This document shows, in pieces, positions 1 through 9,766 of a stretch of 9,766 nt of DNA. Source of the stretch: Mesomycoplasma ovipneumoniae. Lineage in GTDB: Bacteria > Bacillota_I > Bacilli_A > Mycoplasmatales > Metamycoplasmataceae. The first letter of the stretch is position 1. The number at the start of each line of letters is the position of its first letter. The DNA lies in NCBI GenBank assembly GCA_009756935.1, contig VZDP01000009.1, positions 24,738 through 34,503 of the forward strand, in the 5' to 3' direction. The position numbers and the translations under genes were made by a program. A model generated the notes under the pieces. The model saw only the letters and a list, made by a program, of their open reading frames with translations. It was not told the origin of the DNA and made no database searches.

Positions 1-150
1 AAAATAAGTAAGCTAATTGAGAATCAAATTACAATGAAATTGATAAAAATTTGTGTATAAGTTGGACTGATAAAATCAGCGGTTGTTATCAAGCTATAAA
101 AATATGGCATGCTAGGTAAACTTATTATTAGCCCTGATATTAAAATTAAG
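1..150. repeat. Terminal direct repeat, left copy (identical to 9617-9766)
   Basis: The first 150 bases match the last 150 base for base in the same orientation. The repeat lies wholly inside the ABC transporter coding frame, and joining the ends leaves that frame open through to a stop codon. This is what a closed circular contig or a tandem-repeat unit looks like when reported with a residual overlap. Confidence 0.97.
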
Positions 151-2285
151 AAAGAAATTGCAAAAATATTTAATATGTGTAGGAAAAAGATTTTTTTAGT
201 TTTTTCGCCTAGTGATTTAAGAATTCCAATTGATTTTAATTTTGATTGTGTTAGATTTTTTGCATAAAGAACTGAAAAAACTACCAATAAAACTATAAGA
301 ATTACTTGGATAACAAGTAAAGTTGCTTGCACTAAAAAGGTGGAAGTTAAAACAAAAATTTTTATTGATTCAAGATCATTTGAATATAAAAAATTTGGAA
401 AATCCTTTTTAAATGAGTCTAAATTTTCACTAATATTTTCAGATTTTAAAAATATTCTTGCACCTCGTGGTCTTATTTCATTTCTATATTCATCACCATC
501 ATTGTGCATTATGATTTGGTGCTTAAATTCACGTCTTTGTTCTTCGGGAGCGCCAGCTTCAGATCTTTGTTCCTGCAAATGATGGTTTTCCTTTAGATCA
601 AAAGTTCCAACTATTTTAAAAGGAATATCTTGTCCATTTTTGTTTGATAATTCAACTTTAGACCCTATTTTTAGCTTCTCGTATTTGTCGATTTTGCAAT
701 CATTGTTTTTATCTATAATATTATTTATTTCATCAATAGTGTTAACTGAAACAACAATTTCATCTTTATTCTTAGGAAGCTCACCATTACTAATTTTTAA
801 ATTTTCTAGCTTTAAATCTTTTAAAAAATGATTTTTCTCAACTTCCAATTCTTCAAATCCTTTTGCATTCAAAGGAGCGATCATTATGTCACTGAAAAGT
901 GACTCGCCGACTGTGTTTTTAACATAAAAAGCTTCTTCAATTTTTTTTGCTAAATTATAATGCAAAAAAGAGGGTATTGTGTTGAATACATCAGTTGAAT
1001 AGTTTACTCCGACAATAGTAGCCTCAAAAATTGTTGGAATTTCATCAACATTCGAATGACGTATAGCTTTAATTTTAATTTTTTTGCCAACAGGATCAGT
1101 AATTTTTAATTTTGTGACAACTGAATTTGAAATAATTATCTCATCTTCATTTTGTATAAAATTACCTTGAAGGTTTTTGTCATCAAATTTAAACCTATTT
1201 TTAAAAAAATCAGATTCGTCGATTAATTCAATAGCATTTTTCTCAGAAATTAATTCTTTGTCGTTATTATTATAAGTAAAAGCAAAGTTTTGAGTTGAAT
1301 AAATGGGAATAATTTTATTAACAATGTCTTTTTTAGTATTGAATTTCTCGATTTCTCCGTCAAAAAATGGTGCTATTCCCTTTTTTTGAAGCTCAAAAGA
1401 ATCTAAATTGTATTGATGAATTCGTTGCGAGTTAACGGCATTTGCTTGTGTATCAAGTGTAGCAAATAAATTTAGACTTAAAATGCTAATTAGAAATGTG
1501 ATAATCAGTAAGGCTGTAATAATTATTTTATTTTTAAAATCTAGCTTCAAAAATAAAATAATTAATTTTAATTTATCACTTATTTTTAAAGGTTTTTTTT
1601 CAAATTTAAAATTATAATCAGTTTTATTTAAAGATTCGGCTTTATTTATTTCTTCGATTTTATCAATTTCTAATACAGATTCATTTTTTAGATAAATTAT
1701 TCTATCGCCGTATTTTTTAGCAAGATCTAAATTGTGGCTAACTATCAAAATAGTTTTATTTTTCTTTAATATTTGTATTTTTTCAAAAAGAATTTCAGCA
1801 TTTTCAACATCAAGATTTCCAGTAGGTTCATCTAACAAAATAAAGTCAGATTCACGCGCTAATGATCGCAAAATTGCGATTCGTTGTTTTTGACCACCTG
1901 ATAAATCACTCACTTTATTTGCTAAATTTTCTTTTGAAATATTAACAAAACTTGCATTTTCTTCAATATTCTTTTCATCAATATTAAAATTTATTGCATT
2001 TGCGCCAATTTTAATATTTTCCATACCAGTAGCAGATTCAATTAGGTTAAAATCTTGAAAAACAACGTCAATTAAAGGGTTTTTAACAATTTTGTTATCT
2101 TTATAAAAAAAAATTTCACCTTTATCTTTTTGACTAAAATTAGCGATTAGGTTAATAAGAGTAGTTTTCCCAATCCCAGAAGGTCCAACAACAAAAACCA
2201 ACTCATTAGATGGAATGTCCAGGCTAAAATTTTTGAAAATAGCTCTTCGATTAAAAGTTTTAGTCAAATTTTTAATTTTTATCAT
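1..2285 (-). CDS. MacB/FtsX-type ABC transporter, ATPase-permease fusion (3' end continues past window edge)
   Basis: Starts at ATG 2285-2283, overlapping the end of the upstream gene by 14 nt, so it is probably translationally coupled. Residues 1-215 are an ABC ATPase: Walker A GPSGIGKT (34-41), Q-loop Q77, signature LSGGQ (128-132), Walker B FILLDEP (148-154), H-switch H184. A linker leads to one membrane helix (about 243-275), a large predicted extracellular domain (280-640), then C-terminal helices (about 642-675, 698-730 and 743-770) as in FtsX-like MacB permeases. This family uses ATP to drive conformational work on extracytoplasmic substrates, often peptide export or defence, rather than classic uptake. 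Here it closes an operon with a secreted protein and a membrane-anchored protein, so exporting or handling the former is plausible. The frame is still open at base 1 (UGA Trp at residue 754). Joined to 9616-9544 through the terminal repeat it gives 785 residues. An EF-hand-like loop sits at 525-536. Confidence 0.93.
678..713 (-). other. EF-hand-like calcium-loop motif inside the ABC permease extracellular domain
   Basis: Codons 525-536 of the ABC transporter read DKNNDCKIDKYE. This fits the 12-residue EF-hand or dockerin-type loop pattern D-x-N-x-D-x-x-I-D-x-x-E: acidic or amide residues at positions 1, 3, 5, 9 and 12 and isoleucine at 8. Position 7 is Lys instead of the usual Gly, which weakens the case. 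Calcium binding is an inference from the pattern only. Confidence 0.45.
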
Positions 2286-4155
2286 TTTTAAGTAGCCAAT
2301 CTATTTGATAAGTCAGATAAATAGTTTTAATATTCAAAAAGCGTGTTTTACCTATTTTTCTATCAATTTTATCTAAAATATCTTTTTTTAATAATGAAAT
2401 AAATTTTTCTAATTTAGTAGAGTCTATTTGGTGCTCTAATTTTGATTTAATTGCGCTTTGAAACTCAATATACCAAAAAAGATGTTCTAAAAATTCAGCG
2501 TTATTTATATTTTTTTCATCAAGATTTTGGTTTATAAATTCGACAATTTCTTTATTACCATCTAATTCATTTTTAAAAATAAACTTAATAAATAAGTTAA
2601 TAAATTTTAAAAAAAATGGAGCATTTTTTTCTAGTTTCACATTTATAATATTGTCAAAAATGTCCTTGGAAACATTAATTTTCGCCGGTTTGTCTGTATT
2701 ATAAAAACTATTTAATAGTGCAATTGTTTTAAACAAATAAAAAAAATCAATTGGTTTTTTTACAAATTTACTATAATCAATTATTCTATTTAAAAAATCT
2801 TTTTGACTATTTAAAAAATCGGGATGAGTCTTAATTGAAAAAAATACATAATTATATAAGTCCTGAAAAAAATCAGGATTATTTTCCGGTTTTTCCGTTG
2901 TTTGTTTAAATAAGGTTTCTATTGTTTGATTTATTTTTTCCACTTGATCATCTTTTTTCTCACTCAAGTCTAAAATCTGTTTTACAAAAATTGTTTTTGT
3001 AATATCAGGTGTTACGGGAAATAGAATATTTTCAATACTATAATCAATAATTTCCTTGTTTTTTTCAATCAAATCTTGTTCTAATTTTTGGTTATTTCCA
3101 AAATAGTAATTAATTATAGAAACCATATAAAAAGTATATTCATCTGCTGAGTTAATAATTGCATTTTTAGAAAACATTTTTATTTTTTCTCATTCAGAAT
3201 CATTGTAATTATAAAAATGTTTTGTATTAAAATAAAAGGAGACTATTCCCGGTTCATCATTCATATCAGGTTTTATTTTAATATCATTGCTTTTAAAAGC
3301 CATTTCATAATAATCTTTTCAAGATTTTATTAAAGTATTAAGTGATTGTTGTTTCTGAACTAATGTATCGGTAAAATTAAATTTACCTAGAATATTAATT
3401 ATCGATAAAAAAGGTATATATTTTCGAAAAAGTATGTGTTGTTTTTCTCTAAGCTTTTTGTGATCATCATTAATTTTTATTAAAACCTCATTATTTTCAA
3501 AATTAAAATTAATTAATTCTTCCTTGATTCAATCTTTTATATCAAAAAATTCTTGAAAATCAAATCCATTTAATTTAAAATATAACAAAATGAAATTTAA
3601 ATCCCGAAACAAATATTCTCTATCGTTTGTGACTTCGAATCTTTTCTTTTCTTTATTATAATATTTTGAAATTAAACTAATAAGTTTCGGCAAATTTTTT
3701 TTTGGATCTATATTTAAATAGATATTAGTTATGTAATAAAGCTGATTAAATTGAATTTGGTTGGGCAAATTAGGTGCTATTTTTAAAATTGAATTTATTT
3801 TTTCAAGTTGAGATTTATCACCTGTCATTTTTGCAAAAGCAAAAATATTATTTGCAGTTTCGAAATCATATTCATCCTGAAAATTGTTTTTAAGCGTATA
3901 ACTTATTTGTTGCTTACCCCTTTTCAACTCATTTTCTAAAATAAATTCATTTATTTTTTCTATGTAAGAGTTGGAAAAAATAGCAGAGGAGTTTGTGCTA
4001 TTAATTAATGTTTTAGGTTTGAATGCATTTACCCCAACTTCAATATTTTGATTAAGAAAATAATAAATTAATGGAACACTTATACCAATAGAACCTATGC
4101 TTGCACCAATAATTGAAAAAATAACTCATTTTTTTGTAAAAATTTTAGATGACAT
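2272..4155 (-). CDS. Membrane-anchored all-helical extracellular protein, unknown function
   Basis: A 627-residue frame with UGA Trp, running without interruption from ATG 4155-4153 to TAA 2274-2272. Residues 1-9 are basic, residues 10-34 are one hydrophobic helix (VIFSIIGASIGSIG...IYYF), and the rest is hydrophilic, so the positive-inside rule places about 590 residues outside. There is no lipobox cysteine near the N-terminus. The outer part is rich in Leu, Ile, Phe, Asn and Lys and looks built of paired amphipathic helices. Stretches such as SKYYNKEKKRFEV followed by YLFRDLNFILLYFKLNGFD recall alpha/alpha-toroid repeats, but that is only an impression. It starts two bases after the secreted-protein stop (separated by one TAG) and overlaps the ABC gene by 14 nt, so all three are probably co-translated and may form one surface complex. 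A broken copy lies at 5228-5521. I do not recognise the family. Confidence 0.88.
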
Positions 4156-4158
4156 CTA

Positions 4159-4848
4159 TTATTCTTCTTCTTCGTCCAAGCTCTCGGATAATTGTGAAAC
4201 ACTATTATAAGTAGAATTAGACGTTAACAAAACCTTGGTATAACCATATTCGGCAGCAGCAGTTGCATATTGGTCAAAACTTGTAACCTTATATTTTCAA
4301 CCATTAAAGTCATAAATAATTTTAGCATATTTACTATTATGTTTGGTAATTTCGCTAACTAGATATCCATTTGAATCGATTGCAATATTAGTGTTTACTT
4401 TCCCACCTACGGAAAAATTACCATCGTATTTTACCTCTGCACCTACTTGAAATGAAGGGCTTCCTATTCCCGAAATCCAAGATGTCACCGCTAATTGTAT
4501 TTTGTCTGGGTTATCGTCATATCTATTTTTTCCTCTAAATTTTGCTTTGGCGGTACCATCTCATGAAATTTTATCTTGATAAAATAAACCGCCATAGTAT
4601 GCTAAATTTTGTTTGCCTTCCAATGATATTCCAAAATAAAATTTTTCATTAGATTTTTCAGCGTATTGTATTACATTATTCTCATTTTTATTTACTGGAA
4701 GCTTAAAGCCGGTAAATGCGGCAAATACATAAGCATTAGCATCTGTTTTCTGTATCGCTACAATTGTTGGGGTTAGAATGGACAACGATAAAGATGCAAA
4801 AAGCATTGAATAAATAGAGAGTTTCTTTATTTGTGTTTTTAACTTCAT
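4159..4848 (-). CDS. Secreted protein with Sec signal peptide, paralogue 1 (bacteriocin-like export substrate candidate)
   Basis: A 229-residue frame from ATG 4848-4846 to TAA 4161-4159, with UGA Trp at residues 96 and 184. The start is fixed by a strong Shine-Dalgarno site, TAAGGAG, 5 nt upstream. The N-terminus is a signal peptide: basic KLKTQIKK, hydrophobic 11-32, likely signal peptidase I cut after ANA (37-39). The mature part is rich in Gly, Tyr, Ser and Asn, lacks Cys, and looks beta-rich. Blocks shared with paralogue 2 are YYGGLFYQDKISW (84-96), SWISG-GSPSFQVG (123-136), YDG-F (141-145), DSNGYL (158-163) and GWKYKVT (183-189), with a C-terminal LSESL. The tail DEEEE comes from a GAA repeat that may also act as the ribosome site for the next gene. 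First gene of an operon with the anchored helical protein and the ABC transporter. A bacteriocin- or toxin-like exported effector, or a surface antigen, would fit; no family was recognised. Confidence 0.9.
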
Positions 4849-4853
4849 TAGTT

Positions 4854-4860
4854 CTCCTTA
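4854..4860 (-). promoter_or_regulatory. Shine-Dalgarno site of secreted protein 1
   Basis: TAAGGAG on the minus strand, 5 nt before ATG 4848. It is a near-consensus site and decides the start. Confidence 0.85.
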
Positions 4861-4910
4861 TTAATTTTTTATTAAAATTAATTCTTTATTTTAATAAAAT
4901 TATAACAATA

Positions 4911-4960
4911 ATTATATCATAAAATATCTTGTTTTTTATATATAAAAAAAAAAAAAAAAA
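4911..4960 (-). promoter_or_regulatory. Candidate phase-variable promoter of secreted protein 1 (TATAAT plus T17 tract)
   Basis: On the minus strand GATATAATT gives a TATAAT -10 box at 4916-4911, conserved in sequence and setting upstream of paralogue 2 (6251-6246). A second TATAAT lies at 4904-4899. An uninterrupted run of 17 T (A17 on the + strand, 4944-4960) lies 27 bp upstream of the conserved -10 box, covering the -35 region and just beyond. Length changes in such homopolymers near promoters switch surface-protein genes in mycoplasmas, for example the poly-A tract of vlp genes in M. hyorhinis. In paralogue 2 the matching tract is broken by C and G, which suggests only copy 1 could switch. 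The regulation is inferred. Confidence 0.6.
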
Positions 4961-5127
4961 TACAAAAATATAATTTTTGTTAAAAAAATGTAAAAAAATA
5001 TATTTTTATTCACAGCAATTTTGCAAACCATAAACTTTATAAACATAAAACAAAATTTAAATAACAAAAGTAAGTCATTAAAATTTGCGGCTGTTTCTTC
5101 ATTTTTTCTTTTTTATATATAGCATTC

Positions 5128-5154
5128 AAAAGGGCAGAATTTTTTTGCTCTTTT
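5128..5154. terminator. Weak candidate hairpin terminator between the two secreted-protein units
   Basis: AAAAGGGCA pairs with TGCTCTTTT (nine pairs, one G-T) around a T-rich 9-base loop. It could end transcripts coming from the upstream unit before the promoter of secreted protein 1. On the minus strand the stem itself ends in TTTT but no long T-run follows; on the + strand TT follows the final TTTT. Its direction is therefore unclear. Confidence 0.35.
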
Positions 5155-5227
5155 TTCATATTTTAGGCCTTTATAATAAATTTTATTAAAACAGATTTAC
5201 CTTAAAACACAAAATATTGAATATTCA

Positions 5228-5521
5228 ACGTAATTATAATCTGCCTGAAAATTATTTTTTAGAGTATAACTAGTTTTTTGCACACTTTTTTAATTCATTT
5301 TTTAAAATAAAACTGTTTATTTTTTCTAGATCAGAATTAGAGAAAATAGATGCGGATTTTGAATCACTAGCTAATGTTTTAGGCTCAAATCTATTTATTT
5401 CAAATCAATAGACTTATTAAAAACATAATAAATTAATACAACACTTATAACAATTGACCCTAAACTTGTACTAATAATTGAGAAAATAACTCATTTTTTT
5501 TTCAACAATTTTAGAAATCAT
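5228..5521 (-). pseudogene. Decayed 5' fragment of the helical membrane-anchored protein
   Basis: It starts at ATG 5521-5519, six bases after the stop of secreted protein 2, exactly where the intact homologue starts after secreted protein 1. With frames corrected it reads MISKIVEKKWVIFSII, then SLGSIVISVVLIYYVFN, then RFEPKTLASDSKSASIFSNS and LEKINSFILKNELKK, matching residues 1 to about 95 of the protein at 2272-4155. It has at least three frameshifts: an A9 run where the intact copy has A7, one after an in-frame TAA near SIDLK, and one near KKCAKN. Homology stops at about 5228-5245, at the duplication junction. It cannot make the full protein. Confidence 0.85.
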
Positions 5522-5527
5522 TTACTG

Positions 5528-6190
5528 TTATCCCAAACTTTCAGATAATTCAGAAACCTTATAAAAAGCAGAATTAGATAATAAATTCCTAGTTTTTCAA
5601 CCGAAATCAACTCTTGCTGCCGCATAGCTGCCGAATTTTGTTACTTTGTATTTTCAACCATGATAATCATAATTAATTGAAGCATATTTATTATTATGAC
5701 TAGTTATTGTTTGAATAAGATAACCATTGGAATCAATTCAAGCATCTGTATTCATACTTGCCCTAGGTGAAAATTTACCATCATATCTTATCTCGTCACC
5801 AACTTGAAAAGAAGGGCTTCCAAGCCCCGAAATTCAAGATATCAGCTGTAATTTTAAATTTTTTGGACTATAATAATATTTATTTTTTAATCTAAATTTT
5901 GTTTTTACTTGTCCAGTTCATGAAATTTTGTCTTGATAAAATAAACCGCCATAATATGATAAATTTTGGTCACCTACCAATTTTATTCCGAAATAAAAGT
6001 CTTCTTCATTTATTTCAGCAAGTTGTATATTATTTTTTTTTGCTGAAGACGAAATTCCTGGAAAAGCTAAAGAAGCCTTCGCATTTATTTTTTGACTAGC
6101 AACAATCGCTGGTGTTGCGACTGCAAGCGTTAAACTTGTTAATGCTGTTAGGTTTAGTAAAATTTTTTTTATTTTTTTTGCTAATAACAT
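5528..6190 (-). CDS. Secreted protein with Sec signal peptide, paralogue 2
   Basis: A 220-residue frame from ATG 6190-6188 to TAA 5530-5528, read through UGA Trp codons at 91, 119, 151, 179 and 198. AAGGAG lies 5 nt upstream and fixes the start. The signal peptide has basic AKKIKK, hydrophobic 10-32, and a likely signal peptidase I cut near NAKA (36-39). It shares with paralogue 1 YYGGLFYQDKISW (79-91), SWISG-GSPSFQVG (118-131), YDG-FS (136-141), DSNGYL (153-158), GWKYKVT (178-184) and the C-terminal LSESL, but ends in Gly instead of DEEEE. The region just after the signal peptide and the region 187-205 differ most. No Cys. Its downstream partner gene is broken, so it would depend on the helical protein and transporter of the other unit if exported by them. 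Its function is not recognised. Confidence 0.88.
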
Positions 6191-6465
6191 AAAATCTCCT
6201 TAATAAAATTTATTTATAAAGTACTTATATGTTTGTTTATTCACAATTATATCACGCTAAATTAAATAACAAAGAACAAAAACAAGAAAAATACAAAAAT
6301 ATAATTTTTATTAAAAAACGGCAAAAATTATATTTTTATTCATATACTATTTTTGCAAACTATAAATCCTATAAATATAAAAAAGAAATATTAAATATTT
6401 TAGTCCTTTATGATAAATATTATCAAAACAGATTTGCCTTAAAACACAAAATATTTAATACCCCC
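6191..6465 (-). repeat. Upstream region of secreted protein 2, homologous to 4849-5226
   Basis: This non-coding stretch holds the promoter and ribosome site and then matches the far upstream region of paralogue 1 up to CTTAAAACACAAAATATTTAATA. Homology ends at about 6460-6465, where the unrelated + strand reading frame becomes unique sequence. Confidence 0.75.
6196..6251 (-). promoter_or_regulatory. Promoter and ribosome site of secreted protein 2
   Basis: TATAAT (6251-6246, context GTGATATAATTG) matches the -10 box of paralogue 1, and AAGGAG (6201-6196) is the Shine-Dalgarno site. The segment upstream that aligns with the T17 tract of paralogue 1 reads as broken T-runs separated by C and G (about 6270-6291), so it is not a clean slippage tract. 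AAGTACTT (6219-6226) in the leader is a small palindrome of unknown meaning. Confidence 0.65.
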
Positions 6466-7075
6466 AAATAAGCTGCTATTTCATAAAACTAGATTATTTA
6501 TTAAAAAAAATTTGCTAAATATTATTGTTAATAGATTTATTTTTGATTTTTTTCTAAAAAATAATACTGAATTGATATGATTCTCTAAAAATGAATATAA
6601 ATTTGAACTAATAAATTCTCTCCAAAGAAATAAACTTTTGTCAAAAAAAATTCAATCACTTTTCTGTTTGAATAAATATTCTAGGAATTTATTTAGTAAT
6701 TTAATGGTTATTAATGATTATATCTTGAAAAATAAGTATAATATTATTACCAAAATTAACACACTAAATGAGTCCGAACGCACGCTATTTTCAAATGAAA
6801 TCTACTTGAAAAATGTAAACTTCTTCTTTAATAATTTTAAAATGATAAACACAAAAAATATAGTTTTTAGTTCAAAAATTTCACCAAACTGAGACAATGA
6901 AATCATAGAGATTAATAAGTTATTCCCCTTTATAAAGATTTTAAAAATTCTATCATTAAAGTACAAAATTAATGAAAATCTAAATAAAAATGAAATTTTA
7001 ATTTATTCTAGCAATGATCGAGAGTTTTTACTTAACACATTATATAAAATAGTTGTTTTGTTAGCATTTATCTAA
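6443..7075 (+). pseudogene. Start-less reading frame of unknown function, probably 5'-truncated
   Basis: Open from a stop at 6440-6442 to TAA 7073-7075, with UGA Trp at two places (LIWFSKNE and SPNWDNE). There is no ATG in the first 90 codons and no Shine-Dalgarno site, so as it stands it is probably the 3' part of a longer gene. Its first 20 bases or so belong to the duplicated promoter region, so the duplication or an associated rearrangement probably cut it. The product would be hydrophilic and rich in Asn, Lys, Ile and Phe, with a short hydrophobic end (IVVLLAFI). I see no motif I can name. It is the only sizeable frame on the + strand not shadowing a minus-strand gene, and a palindromic terminator follows 55 bases after the stop, supporting a real gene origin. 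Confidence 0.5.
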
Positions 7076-7129
7076 TTAAAGGGTTGCCAAACCAAGGAGA
7101 ATTTCAATTATTTTAATTTTCGACAAAAC

Positions 7130-7151
7130 ATGATTTTATTAATAAAATCAT
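7130..7151 (+). terminator. Perfect 22-bp palindrome with T-rich tail, likely terminator of the + strand frame
   Basis: ATGATTTTATT is followed directly by its exact reverse complement AATAAAATCAT, then TTTTATTATTTG on the + strand. It lies 55 nt after the stop at 7075. The stem is AT-rich but long. It may also stop minus-strand transcripts arriving from the gene at 7485-8216. Confidence 0.55.
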
Positions 7152-7258
7152 TTTTATTATTTGTTATTCCTTAATTAAATTTCAGTTTCTATTGACATAG
7201 ATATATTTAAAAAACCCAAATTAAAAATATAAATGCAACACACAAATATTTTTAATTC

Positions 7259-7484
7259 GGGATCCAGCCAAAGTGGCGGGAGTCTTCTTCAAGTTTTGAA
7301 TTGTTATACTAGTCAATAAATCAACTTATTTTTTGATTTGCAACGGTCACATTTTCAAAATTTTGACCTTCGATATTAATCGTGGCTACAAAAAAGTATA
7401 AAAAATCATTGGTTAGTTTGTGGGGTTGTTTTTTGAAAGTATTAATTTATTTGTGATTTGATTTTCTAAAAAATTTATGCAATC
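7259..7484 (-). repeat. 3' flanking repeat of the downstream four-helix gene (homologous to 8503-8729)
   Basis: It covers most of the gene-free stretch 7076-7484. It begins with a degenerate hairpin (GGATCCAGCC / GGCGGGAGTC, 7260-7284) that matches the clean hairpin at 8503-8529, and runs up to the stop codon of the membrane-protein gene. In the frame of that gene the segment still reads protein-like pieces (FVATINIEGQNFENV, QKISWFID) but has a 1-base deletion and stops, so here it is not coding. Confidence 0.7.
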
Positions 7485-8216
7485 TTAATTTTCTTTAGGA
7501 AGATAAAATCTGATAAAAATACTTTTAAAACTTTTTTTAGATTCTTCAACAGAAACAGTCGAAAGATTTCTAATAACTTGTATTAATTTGATTGTTGATT
7601 GATTCAATCACGCTGAGGCAGGACTAGCAATAACAACAAATATCAAACTACTTACCACCGAATATGTAAAATTAGGAATAACAGATAAATTATTATCTTT
7701 TGTTGAAAGCAATGTTGTAAACATAAAATAGTAAAATAAAGTAAAGCATGCAATTAAAAAAGGGACTAAAAATGATTCAACAATGTGAAATTTTAAAATA
7801 ATCTTGTATACAAATTTTTGTTTTACTTCATAGTTGGGATCTTGTTCATTAAATTTAGAAGCAATTAAAGGTAATTGAAATTTTAACCAAGTATTATAAT
7901 CTGAAACTCTTCTTGCAAATCGAGCTGCATTTTTTTCAATTTTTAAAAGTTTAGGAAACTTTTTTTCAAGTTCTTCATTTGATAAATTCAAAGCCTCTTT
8001 TTTATATTTGGAAATAAATCAAATGTATCTTGAAAAGGTAAGAAAAGCAAGCAAAAAAATCGAACTAAAAATAAATATTCTTAAAATAAGCAAATGTTCG
8101 GGAAATAAGTATTGAAAAGGTGTACCTAATAGAATAATAATTAATAAAAAAACGCTTGAAACAATATAAAGGGGTTTAAAAAATAATAGTCTATGAAGTA
8201 GTAAAATTGATTTCAT
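7485..8216 (-). CDS. Four-helix membrane protein, paralogue C (candidate immunity or self-protection protein)
   Basis: A 243-residue frame from ATG 8216-8214 to TAA 7487-7485, with UGA Trp in RYIWFISK and ASAWLNQ. AGGTGG (8230-8225) is 8 nt upstream and fixes this ATG over the in-frame GTG at 8228. Predicted layout: two helices at about 16-34 and 41-64, a charged helical segment (about 68-142, LSNEELEKKFPKLLKIEKNAARFARR), two helices at about 146-170 and 179-204, then a basic C-terminal tail with EESKKSFKS. Both ends would be on the same side. It is a tandem paralogue of 8730-9461, of identical length. Placed near secreted effector-like genes and an ABC transporter, an immunity role is a reasonable guess; the central helices plus two membrane segments also recall small pore-forming or 2TM conflict proteins. 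The family is not recognised. Confidence 0.87.
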
Positions 8217-8224
8217 TTTAATAA

Positions 8225-8274
8225 CCACCTGTGTTGATTTCTCTAAATCAAATCTAAATTATATACTAATTTAG
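8225..8274 (-). promoter_or_regulatory. Promoter C: TATAAT within an imperfect palindrome, plus AGGTGG ribosome site
   Basis: On the minus strand CTAAATTAGTA (8274-8264) is followed by TATAATTTAG, so TATAAT occupies 8263-8258. The 21-base element is one base short of the perfect 22-bp palindrome in front of the paralogous gene. AGGTGG (8230-8225) sits 8 nt before ATG 8216. Sequence between the palindrome and the ribosome site (TTGATTTAGA..AAATCAAC) is conserved in both copies. An operator overlapping the -10 box is likely but inferred. Confidence 0.6.
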
Positions 8275-8502
8275 GCATCATATAACCTAAAAAAATTAGA
8301 AATTATTTTGCCTAATTGGCTAAATAATGTGAAATTAAATTAGATTTCTATCTGAAAAAATCCATAAAAATTTAAAACAGAAAATTATGAACACTCTCTA
8401 AAACTCTAAATTTTAGTGTAAATTATTTACGCCCAATTAACTGTACTTTTAGTTAATAAGAAATTCTCACACAAAAACAAGTCTTGTTTTAACAAAATAG
8501 TA
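8275..8502. other. Gene-free spacer between the two membrane-protein units
   Basis: Bases 8275-8310 resemble the stretch around the ABC transporter stop (9523-9555; both contain CCTAAAAAA and nearby ATT/ACTATTTTT), so the duplication seems to begin near that stop. The rest is unique. It has two small AT-rich inverted repeats: ATTAACT/AGTTAAT (8436-8457) and AAAACAAG-T-CTTGTTTT (8474-8490). No gene seen apart from an open frame running in from 8729 to about 8430 (see findings). Confidence 0.5.
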
Positions 8503-8529
8503 AAACTCCTGCCAAATTGGCGGGAGTTT
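8503..8529 (-). terminator. Strong hairpin terminator after membrane-protein gene D
   Basis: AAACTCCTGCC and GGCGGGAGTTT form an 11-pair stem (one G-T) with a 5-base AAATT loop, by far the most stable hairpin in this AT-rich window. On the minus strand the stem ends in AGTTTTACTATTTTGTT, a usable T-rich tail. It lies about 200 nt after the stop of the gene at 8730-9461 and insulates the gene at 7485-8216. The + strand tail (TTTCTTTC) would also work weakly. Confidence 0.65.
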
Positions 8530-8729
8530 CTTTCAAGTTTTCAATCGTTATACCAATCAATAAATCAACTTATTTTTTGGTAAGCCACAGACACATTTTC
8601 AAAATTTACAAATTCAATATTAATCGTGACTACAAAATAGTGTAAAAAATTATTGGTGAGTTTGTGGTGGTTGTTTTTTGAAGGTATTAATTTATTTGTG
8701 CTTTGGTTTTCTAAAAAATTTATGCAATC
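8530..8729 (-). repeat. 3' flanking repeat of gene D (homologous to 7285-7484)
   Basis: Direct-repeat partner of the segment after gene C. In the frame of gene D, immediately after its TAA, it stays open for about 100 codons (INFLENQSTNKLI, FVVTINIEFVNFENV, ISWFIDWYND) through the terminator hairpin to a stop near 8430. No start codon or ribosome site is seen, so it is listed as flanking sequence that may be a relic of a longer gene. Confidence 0.6.
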
Positions 8730-9461
8730 TTAAATGTCTTTAGGAAGATAAAATCTGATAAAAATACTTTTAAAGCTTTTTTTAGATTCTTCAACAGAAA
8801 CAGTCAAAAGATTTCTAAAAACTTGTATTAATTTGATTAATGATTGATTTAATCACGTTGAGGCAACACTAGTAATAACAAAAAGTATAATACCAGTTAT
8901 CAGCGAATATGTAAAGTTAGGAATAACAGATAAATTATTATCTTTTGTTGAAATAAGTGCTGTCATCATAAAATAGTAAGATAAAGCAAGACCTGCCATT
9001 AAAATAGGAGCAAAAAATAATTCAACAATCTGCAATTTTAAAGTAATCTTGTATATAAATTTTCGTTTTTCTTCATAATCGGGATCTTGTTCATTAAATT
9101 CAGAAGCAATTAAAGGTAATTGAAATTTTAACCAAGTATTATAATTTGAAACTTTTTTTGCAAATCAAGCTGCATTTTTTTCAATTTTTAAAAGTTTGGG
9201 AAACTTTTTTTCAAGTTCTTCATTTGACAAATTCAAAGCCTCTTTTTTGTATTTGCGAATAAATCAAATGTATCTTGAAATGGTAAGAAAAGCAAACAAA
9301 AAAATCGAACCAAAAATAAGTATTCTTAAAATAAGTATATGTTCAGGAAATATGGGTTGAAAATGTGTGCTTATTATAAAAATCAACGATAAAAAAAAGC
9401 TTGAAACAACATAAATGGGTTTAAGAAATACTAGTCTATTAAGTAGTAAAATTGATTTCAT
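8730..9461 (-). CDS. Four-helix membrane protein, paralogue D (candidate immunity or self-protection protein)
   Basis: A 243-residue frame from ATG 9461-9459 to TAA 8732-8730, with UGA Trp in RYIWFIRK, NAAWFAKK and ASTWLNQ. AGGTGG (9475-9470) precedes it by 8 nt; an in-frame GTG at 9473 overlaps that site and is unlikely to be the start. Same layout as paralogue C: helices at about 16-34 and 41-64, a charged helical middle (68-142), helices at about 146-170 and 179-204, and a basic tail. The middle (SNEELEKKFPKLLKIEKNAA, YNTWLKFQLPLIAS, FNEQDP) and the loop STKDNNLSVIPNFTYS are nearly unchanged between copies, whereas the membrane segments vary more, which suggests selection on the soluble parts. 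It follows the ABC transporter stop by 82 nt and has its own palindrome/promoter. Its function is inferred from context only. Confidence 0.88.
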
Positions 9462-9469
9462 TTTAATAA

Positions 9470-9522
9470 CCACCTGCGTTGATTTTTTTCTAAATCAAGT
9501 CTAAATTAGTATACTAATTTAG
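9470..9522 (-). promoter_or_regulatory. Promoter D: perfect 22-bp palindrome over the -10 region, plus AGGTGG ribosome site
   Basis: CTAAATTAGTA joined to its exact reverse complement TACTAATTTAG occupies 9501-9522, and TATACT within it (9513-9508) can serve as the -10 box. No T-run follows, so it does not look like a terminator for the ABC gene although it starts 22 nt after that stop. The leader to AGGTGG (9475-9470) is nearly identical to that of gene C. It is the kind of site a dimeric repressor would bind. Confidence 0.6.
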
Positions 9523-9543
9523 ATATAAAGTGACCTAAAAAAT

Positions 9544-9766
9544 TTACAAACTATTTTTAAGAAGTTCAGTAACAGGTTTTTTGTAATATCTTAATGATAT
9601 GAAGAAATAGATAAGGAAAATAAGTAAGCTAATTGAGAATCAAATTACAATGAAATTGATAAAAATTTGTGTATAAGTTGGACTGATAAAATCAGCGGTT
9701 GTTATCAAGCTATAAAAATATGGCATGCTAGGTAAACTTATTATTAGCCCTGATATTAAAATTAAG
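9544..9766 (-). CDS. C-terminal end of a MacB/FtsX-type ABC transporter (5' end missing)
   Basis: The reading frame enters from the right window edge and stops at TAA 9546-9544. Its last residues, IWFSISLLIFLIYF then RYYKKPVTELLKNSL, are a final membrane helix and a short basic cytoplasmic tail, the usual ending of FtsX-like permeases. Bases 9617-9766 are identical to 1-150, which encode the same part of the transporter at the left edge, so this is either the missing 3' end of that same gene (circular molecule or tandem unit) or an identical second copy. Gene 8730-9461 begins 82 nt downstream of the stop, with no clear terminator between them. Confidence 0.9.
9617..9766. repeat. Terminal direct repeat, right copy (identical to 1-150)
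   Basis: Partner of the left-edge repeat, offset by 9,616 bases, with no mismatch by eye. The unique unit is therefore 9,616 bp. The bases just inside (9544-9616) supply the C-terminal 24 codons and stop that the left-edge gene lacks. Confidence 0.97.

Follow-up and report, generated by a model that had tools for sequence, protein, structure and literature searches.

What does a stretch of bacterial DNA represent when its two ends are the same, and when a gene cut at one end is completed at the other? The question is raised by a 9,766-nt stretch of Mesomycoplasma ovipneumoniae (GenBank assembly GCA_009756935.1, contig VZDP01000009.1, positions 24,738 to 34,503), which was analyzed as a whole and is here called the window. 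Its ends lie within a gene for an ATP-binding cassette (ABC) transporter. On sequence comparison, the window rather probably represents a single 9,616-bp copy of a M. ovipneumoniae chromosomal island closed head to tail, as a circle or in a tandem array. The informative position is 6465/6466, which, judged by alignment to relatives, joins two distant chromosomal points, the border of a secreted-type protein gene (S220) and a border inside a gene termed O187, at the end of an insertion sequence (IS) of the IS256 family. The parts of the window are ordinary chromosomal genes in relatives; their join is rather unusual.

The chromosomal island and the joint at 6465/6466

Seven chromosomal stretches of relatives (genomes G004, G006, G008, G009, G010, G011 and G012) and the draft genome SC01 were mapped. 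Read with transcription, the island consists of one or two modules, each with genes for a secreted-type protein (S), a 627/630-aa protein and the ABC transporter, followed by 247-type genes. In G009, G011 and G012 the S queries, run at E 1e-12, had no match next to the 627 gene, and the mapped module is 627 plus ABC. A 541-aa gene is the upstream neighbor of the island in G010 and G008. Two complete ABC genes are present in each of G010 and G008, with starts 5.3 and 5.4 kb apart, and SC01 also has two complete copies; the G004 stretch carries a single complete ABC gene plus a partial copy (query residues 1-216), a further ABC gene lying elsewhere. The 247-type genes (three to five in five of the seven stretches, one of them split in two in G010; one in G004; none in G006) occur, in the six stretches that have them, nowhere but downstream of the final ABC gene, and in these six one such gene directly follows ABC, G006 being the exception. 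We show by these alignments a chromosomal island with a recurrent gene order. From S220 to 247a the window carries the gene families of this island in the same order and orientation, but the borders are joined as in the window in none of the seven stretches.

On one side of 6465/6466, window 6301-6474 aligned with the region upstream of the S gene and the IS end of G006 (160 of 177 columns). On the other side, the bases from 6466 on matched O187 of G008 at 95/95 positions, and over window 6466-8664 the G008 chromosome shows 99.86% identity; there O187, which is spread over two frames, lies just past 247a and is not joined to an S gene. The O187 homologues of G004, G009 and G011 are far from the island. 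These comparisons demonstrate, at the level of aligned sequence, a truncated O187 abutting an IS end. A 40-mer over the joint was present in none of the loci L001-L065, and a 33-mer over it was not found in viral_contigs.

The 71 nt preceding the joint (R) belong to a dispersed repeat. Six copies were taken with their flanks from genome G013: five share bases 690-2072 and the sixth 1083-2072, at 99.9-100% identity. Among the pairs listed, the copies diverge within a few bases of 2072, the exception being L054 and L058, which resemble each other in their flanks as well. In the window the counterpart of base 2072 is 6465, given one extra A in the G013 copies. The six copies thus show R to be the outer end of a mobile element. 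The transposase of the full copy bounded by R is IS256 (NF033543; 380.4 bits, cut-off 150, E 6.6e-114), and an IS256 transposase above cut-off was detected in 8/15 genomes. That R might be the promoter of a repeated gene is ruled out by its identity as an IS256 end. A literature search returned no paper combining ovipneumoniae with IS256.

A simple series of events could have produced the joint. An IS256-family element would have inserted into O187 at one island border; we infer this insertion because the IS border lies inside O187. The other border would carry an old 71-nt IS256 end of the same orientation upstream of S220, taken as old because G006 has it at the same place. Recombination within the 71 nt shared by the two like-oriented ends would then join the borders and leave no whole IS, the product being an excised circle or a tandem duplication of the island. 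We infer this recombination step, and likewise that both window ends are one place. In G006 one module is flanked by two IS ends of the same orientation, so the geometry recurs.

The window ends, and circle, array or linear contig

Self-comparison of the window confirmed the identical ends reported in the first-pass annotation: positions 1-150 and 9617-9766 agree at 150/150 bases, at an offset of 9616, and this match is beyond chance. When TGA is translated as Trp, the minus-strand ABC frame starts at an ATG at 2285 and is open to the left edge (761 aa), and the right end, from 9616 to 9544, adds 24 codons and a stop, giving a protein of 785 aa. Twelve listed proteins (P0072-P0083) have exactly 785 aa and 95% identity over the whole query. 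Among the three of the 12 whose C-terminus was read, P0072 and P0083 end in FLIYFFISLRYYKKPVTELLKNSL, identical to the last 24 residues of the window frame, and P0081 is off by one residue. Orthologue length and tail thus agree with the earlier claim that the frame becomes whole across the join. Its FtsX-like C-terminus fared less evenly: PF02687 is precomputed for P0072 and P0083, but the truncated protein scored 22.5 bits against a cut-off of 25.5. The right end (~283 nt) has 91-96% identity to 11 true chromosomal ABC 3′ ends vs. 85-90% to seven ABC 3′ remnants, and on this basis the idea that it is a mere remnant of the kind preceding later 247 genes is rejected; we show by this comparison that it carries a canonical ABC C-terminus.

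In SC01 the place that corresponds to the window join (9615/1) is interior to a single contig, C24; therefore, the window ends meet in a normal gene interior. The junction 9616/1, on which the first-pass annotation had focused, is ordinary ABC interior in relatives, and the informative junction is the one at 6465/6466. Wholeness of the ABC gene is not proof of a circle, because several relatives carry repeated ABC modules here. A contig spanning one ABC gene to the next, if closed, would also mimic a whole ABC gene; SC01 contig C23 (6.4 kb), for example, begins and ends at the same ABC/627 border.

The strongest alternative builds on this: the window would be linear chromosome, a contig running from one ABC paralogue of a rearranged array to another, the two happening to share an exact 150 nt at which a short-read assembler stopped, with neither a circle nor identical units. 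We regard it as possible, though less favored than the head-to-tail unit. The paired complete ABC copies in the island stretches of G010 and G008 and in SC01 are consistent with it, and the 150-nt stretch, which has 4-11 mismatches per 150 positions relative to 11 ABC copies of relatives, differs between paralogues of one genome at just 5 (G010), 6 (G008) and 5 (SC01) positions. The ABC/627 border is also where contigs of SC01 break, C23 spanning one border to the next, and the linear alternative predicts what the window shows, namely a joint crossed unbroken and a stop within the ABC gene. However, when de Bruijn unitigs longer than 300 nt were modelled from the seven stretches (each covering 16-34 kb of a chromosome) at k 55, 77, 99, 127 and 151, none of the seven yielded a self-overlap of at least 150 nt, the sole overlap being 30 nt (G009, k 99, 127 and 151). 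Equal ends require, by our own reasoning, a repeat about as long as the k-mer, and 150 nt of overlap calls for k of at least 151; the k of 127 stated for short-read samples in a large study of the species (PMC11364169) lies below this value. The left ABC piece is also nearer to the 247-proximal ABC copy than to the other in G010 and SC01 (~96% vs. 94%), but not in G008 (92.0% vs. 92.4%), and the 150-nt stretch is nearer to the 247-proximal copy in all three.

Topologies were then compared in a graph model run at k 77 and 127. Two to three chromosomal copies, or a circle plus one chromosomal copy, gave contigs ending at 6465/6466; a circle alone gave an unbroken cycle that could be cut anywhere. 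The window is continuous through 6465/6466 and cut in the ABC gene, which under the model leans toward a circle, or toward an array whose great depth caused its flanks to be dropped. The same cut could also come from paired reads or from other processing. As the Extended Data Fig. 2 legend of PMC13423834 (Yelin and Kishony 2026) puts it, short reads cannot tell an array from a circular topology.

Several observations weigh against one head-to-tail copy of the island. First, the modelled graph of an array, like that of a circle accompanied by a chromosomal copy of equal depth, breaks at 6466 rather than within the ABC gene, so that an array needs its flank paths dropped. Second, the joint holds only 71 nt of IS (6395-6465), with no whole IS between units. 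Third, the bases after 6465 (AAATAAGCT) resemble their counterparts beyond the IS end of G006 (AAACAAACT) and of one G004 copy (AAATAAATT), so that the IS border is not certain to the base. Fourth, S229 in its exact 229-aa form has a single record, on a 34,503-base contig ~3.6 times as long as the unit.

Readings other than the head-to-tail unit and the linear contig are, even when taken together, unlikely. Nearly all of that small share falls to an assembly chimera, in which assembly, or the processing of the record, created the 6465/6466 joint or the terminal repeat. The dispersed, repeated nature of IS ends suits such an artifact, and 150 is an unusual k-mer size; on the other hand, the joint bears just 71 nt of repeat and falls on an IS border, and its two sides come from unlike places.

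A classic, self-replicating small mycoplasma plasmid is very improbable: the window looks circular at ~10 kb, and a 268-kb M. hyopneumoniae record labelled plasmid (NZ_LR214993.1) holds a distant ABC relative (50.9% identity, most of the query covered), but no Rep, relaxase or integrase family was found in the seven of the window's 21 open reading frames (ORFs) scanned with Pfam and NCBIfam, the NCBIfam rows for the ABC protein being the best 25 of 185, or in the PHROGs rows of six proteins, a megablast search of 72,556 plasmid records gave no match, the genes of the unit are chromosomal in relatives, and NZ_LR214993.1 carries ribosomal and other core genes. A plasmid with its own replication is rejected on the missing plasmid DNA match and the absence of Rep among the scanned ORFs. 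The statement of the earlier annotation that no rep gene or integrase is visible holds for these ORFs, and its preference for an array or excised amplicon over a classic plasmid agrees with the lack of a replication gene and the chromosomal location of the genes in relatives. In NZ_LR214993.1 (L013), called plasmid 2, we noted rpsP, trmD, rplS, topA and truB; it is probably a piece of chromosome. A phage or viral contig is also rejected, neither the whole window (megablast) nor one 69-mer nor the ABC protein having a match.

Gene content of the unit

The features of the window are collected in the table.

Table. Features of the 9,766-nt window (coordinates are window positions; a dot marks features without strand).
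Feature	Position	Strand	Remarks
Left copy of the 150-nt terminal identity	1..150	.	Interior of the ABC gene
ABC transporter, ATPase fused to FtsX-like permease, residues 1-761 of 785	3..2285	-	
627-aa protein, hydrophobic N terminus (by eye)	2272..4155	-	Overlaps ABC start; named relatives are Mesomycoplasma
Secreted-type protein S229; N terminus hydrophobic by eye	4159..4848	-	Beta-rich low-confidence model
Second IS256-family terminus, more diverged, upstream of S229	5158..5226	+	91%, 5158-5223 vs. 6395-6460
Remnant of a 627-type gene (5′ part), separating S220 from S229	5282..5511	-	Similar remnant after S220 in G010
S220, paralogue of S229	5528..6190	-	98% to G010
R, outer terminus (71 nt) of an IS256-family element, with its outer end at 6465	6395..6465	+	Dispersed repeat
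Joint closing the island, IS end abutting truncated O187	6465..6466	.	Border good to a few bases
O187, 3′ part of gene, 5′ part missing	6466..7075 (ORF 6512-7075)	+	360 aa in SC01
247a, 247-aa hydrophobic protein (membrane, by eye)	7485..8228	-	
Remnant of the opposite terminus of the IS256-family element that gave R, inverted relative to R	8289..8396	-	G013 copies ~1.3 kb from R copies
247b, 247-aa hydrophobic protein	8730..9473	-	Directly downstream of ABC 3′ end
ABC frame end, last 24 codons and stop	9544..9616	-	Matches orthologue tails
Right copy of the 150-nt terminal identity	9617..9766	.	Window self-comparison

Within the scanned ORFs, ABC_tran was the sole Pfam family above its cut-off. 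Among the best 25 of 185 NCBIfam rows for the ABC protein, the top one was TIGR03608, which covers the ATPase part only and stays under the cut-off (147.4 bits, cut-off 254.85); the PADLOC rows for the same protein are confined to the ATPase part and are taken as general ATPase likeness. The 627-aa and S families had no meaningful match in Pfam, NCBIfam, PHROGs or PADLOC, and a sequence search of solved structures gave no match for S and, for the 627 family, a single row at chance level. PHROGs returned two weak rows of unknown function for the six proteins searched, and Rfam and tRNA scans of the window found nothing. The nearest named proteins are from M. ovipneumoniae, and the 627-aa family is present in 8/15 genomes of the genus. 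The predicted structure of S229 has ten strands, with a mean predicted local distance difference test (pLDDT) score of 62.6. The cargo may be an export or surface-assembly module, composed of the ABC ATPase-permease, its 627-aa partner and beta-rich secreted-type proteins.

Some repeats of the island stand apart from the joint. The IS remnant at 8289-8396 is located between 247a and 247b, and G008 is identical over window 8280-8420. ABC 3′-end remnants precede later 247-type genes in relatives (L014 9786-10004; L037 17785-17993; L039 18966-19182; L042 12345-12562; L043 13750-13968 and 15279-15498; L044 6894-7111), as if the ABC tail and a 247 gene had been duplicated together. A short dispersed repeat (7209-7255) is found at most 120 bases from the start of SC01 contigs C26, C28 and C30, and at a few sites in G008, G010 and G013.

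Implications and known parallels

If the unit is free or arrayed, it illustrates how a variable island of transporter and secreted-protein genes in a sheep pathogen can be excised or multiplied through solo IS256 ends that lie next to its secreted-protein genes. Tentatively, the window might be a free circle that carries the whole export island, arises when a solo IS256 terminus recombines with an IS copy, and has no replication gene of its own; such a circle would be a translocatable unit that could move or amplify the island between M. ovipneumoniae strains. According to the large study of this species' genomes, plasmids are unreported in assemblies published so far (PMC11364169). As described there, its long-read pipeline discarded contigs not of chromosome size, so that circles of this kind may have escaped notice. 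A closed circle of 1,496 bp in one strain is mentioned in a later paper (PMC12846336).

Three known systems invite comparison. The lactococcin 972-type export transporters (TIGR03608) are like the cargo in that they are the best NCBIfam match of its ATPase part, which lies beside secreted-type proteins; on the other hand, the window protein scores below the family cut-off and its secreted-type neighbors match no family. Mycoplasma integrative and conjugative elements spread via excision and circularization, as outlined in the accessible part of PMC6813540, and the proposed circle would share this step; in contrast, no conjugation or integration family was detected here among the ORFs scanned. 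The third parallel concerns the joint itself: although a 71-nt IS terminus rather than a whole IS marks it here, in the work on canonical and non-canonical IS-associated gene amplification (PMC13423834) a normally single-copy region is likewise closed head to tail, with IS sequence at the joint.

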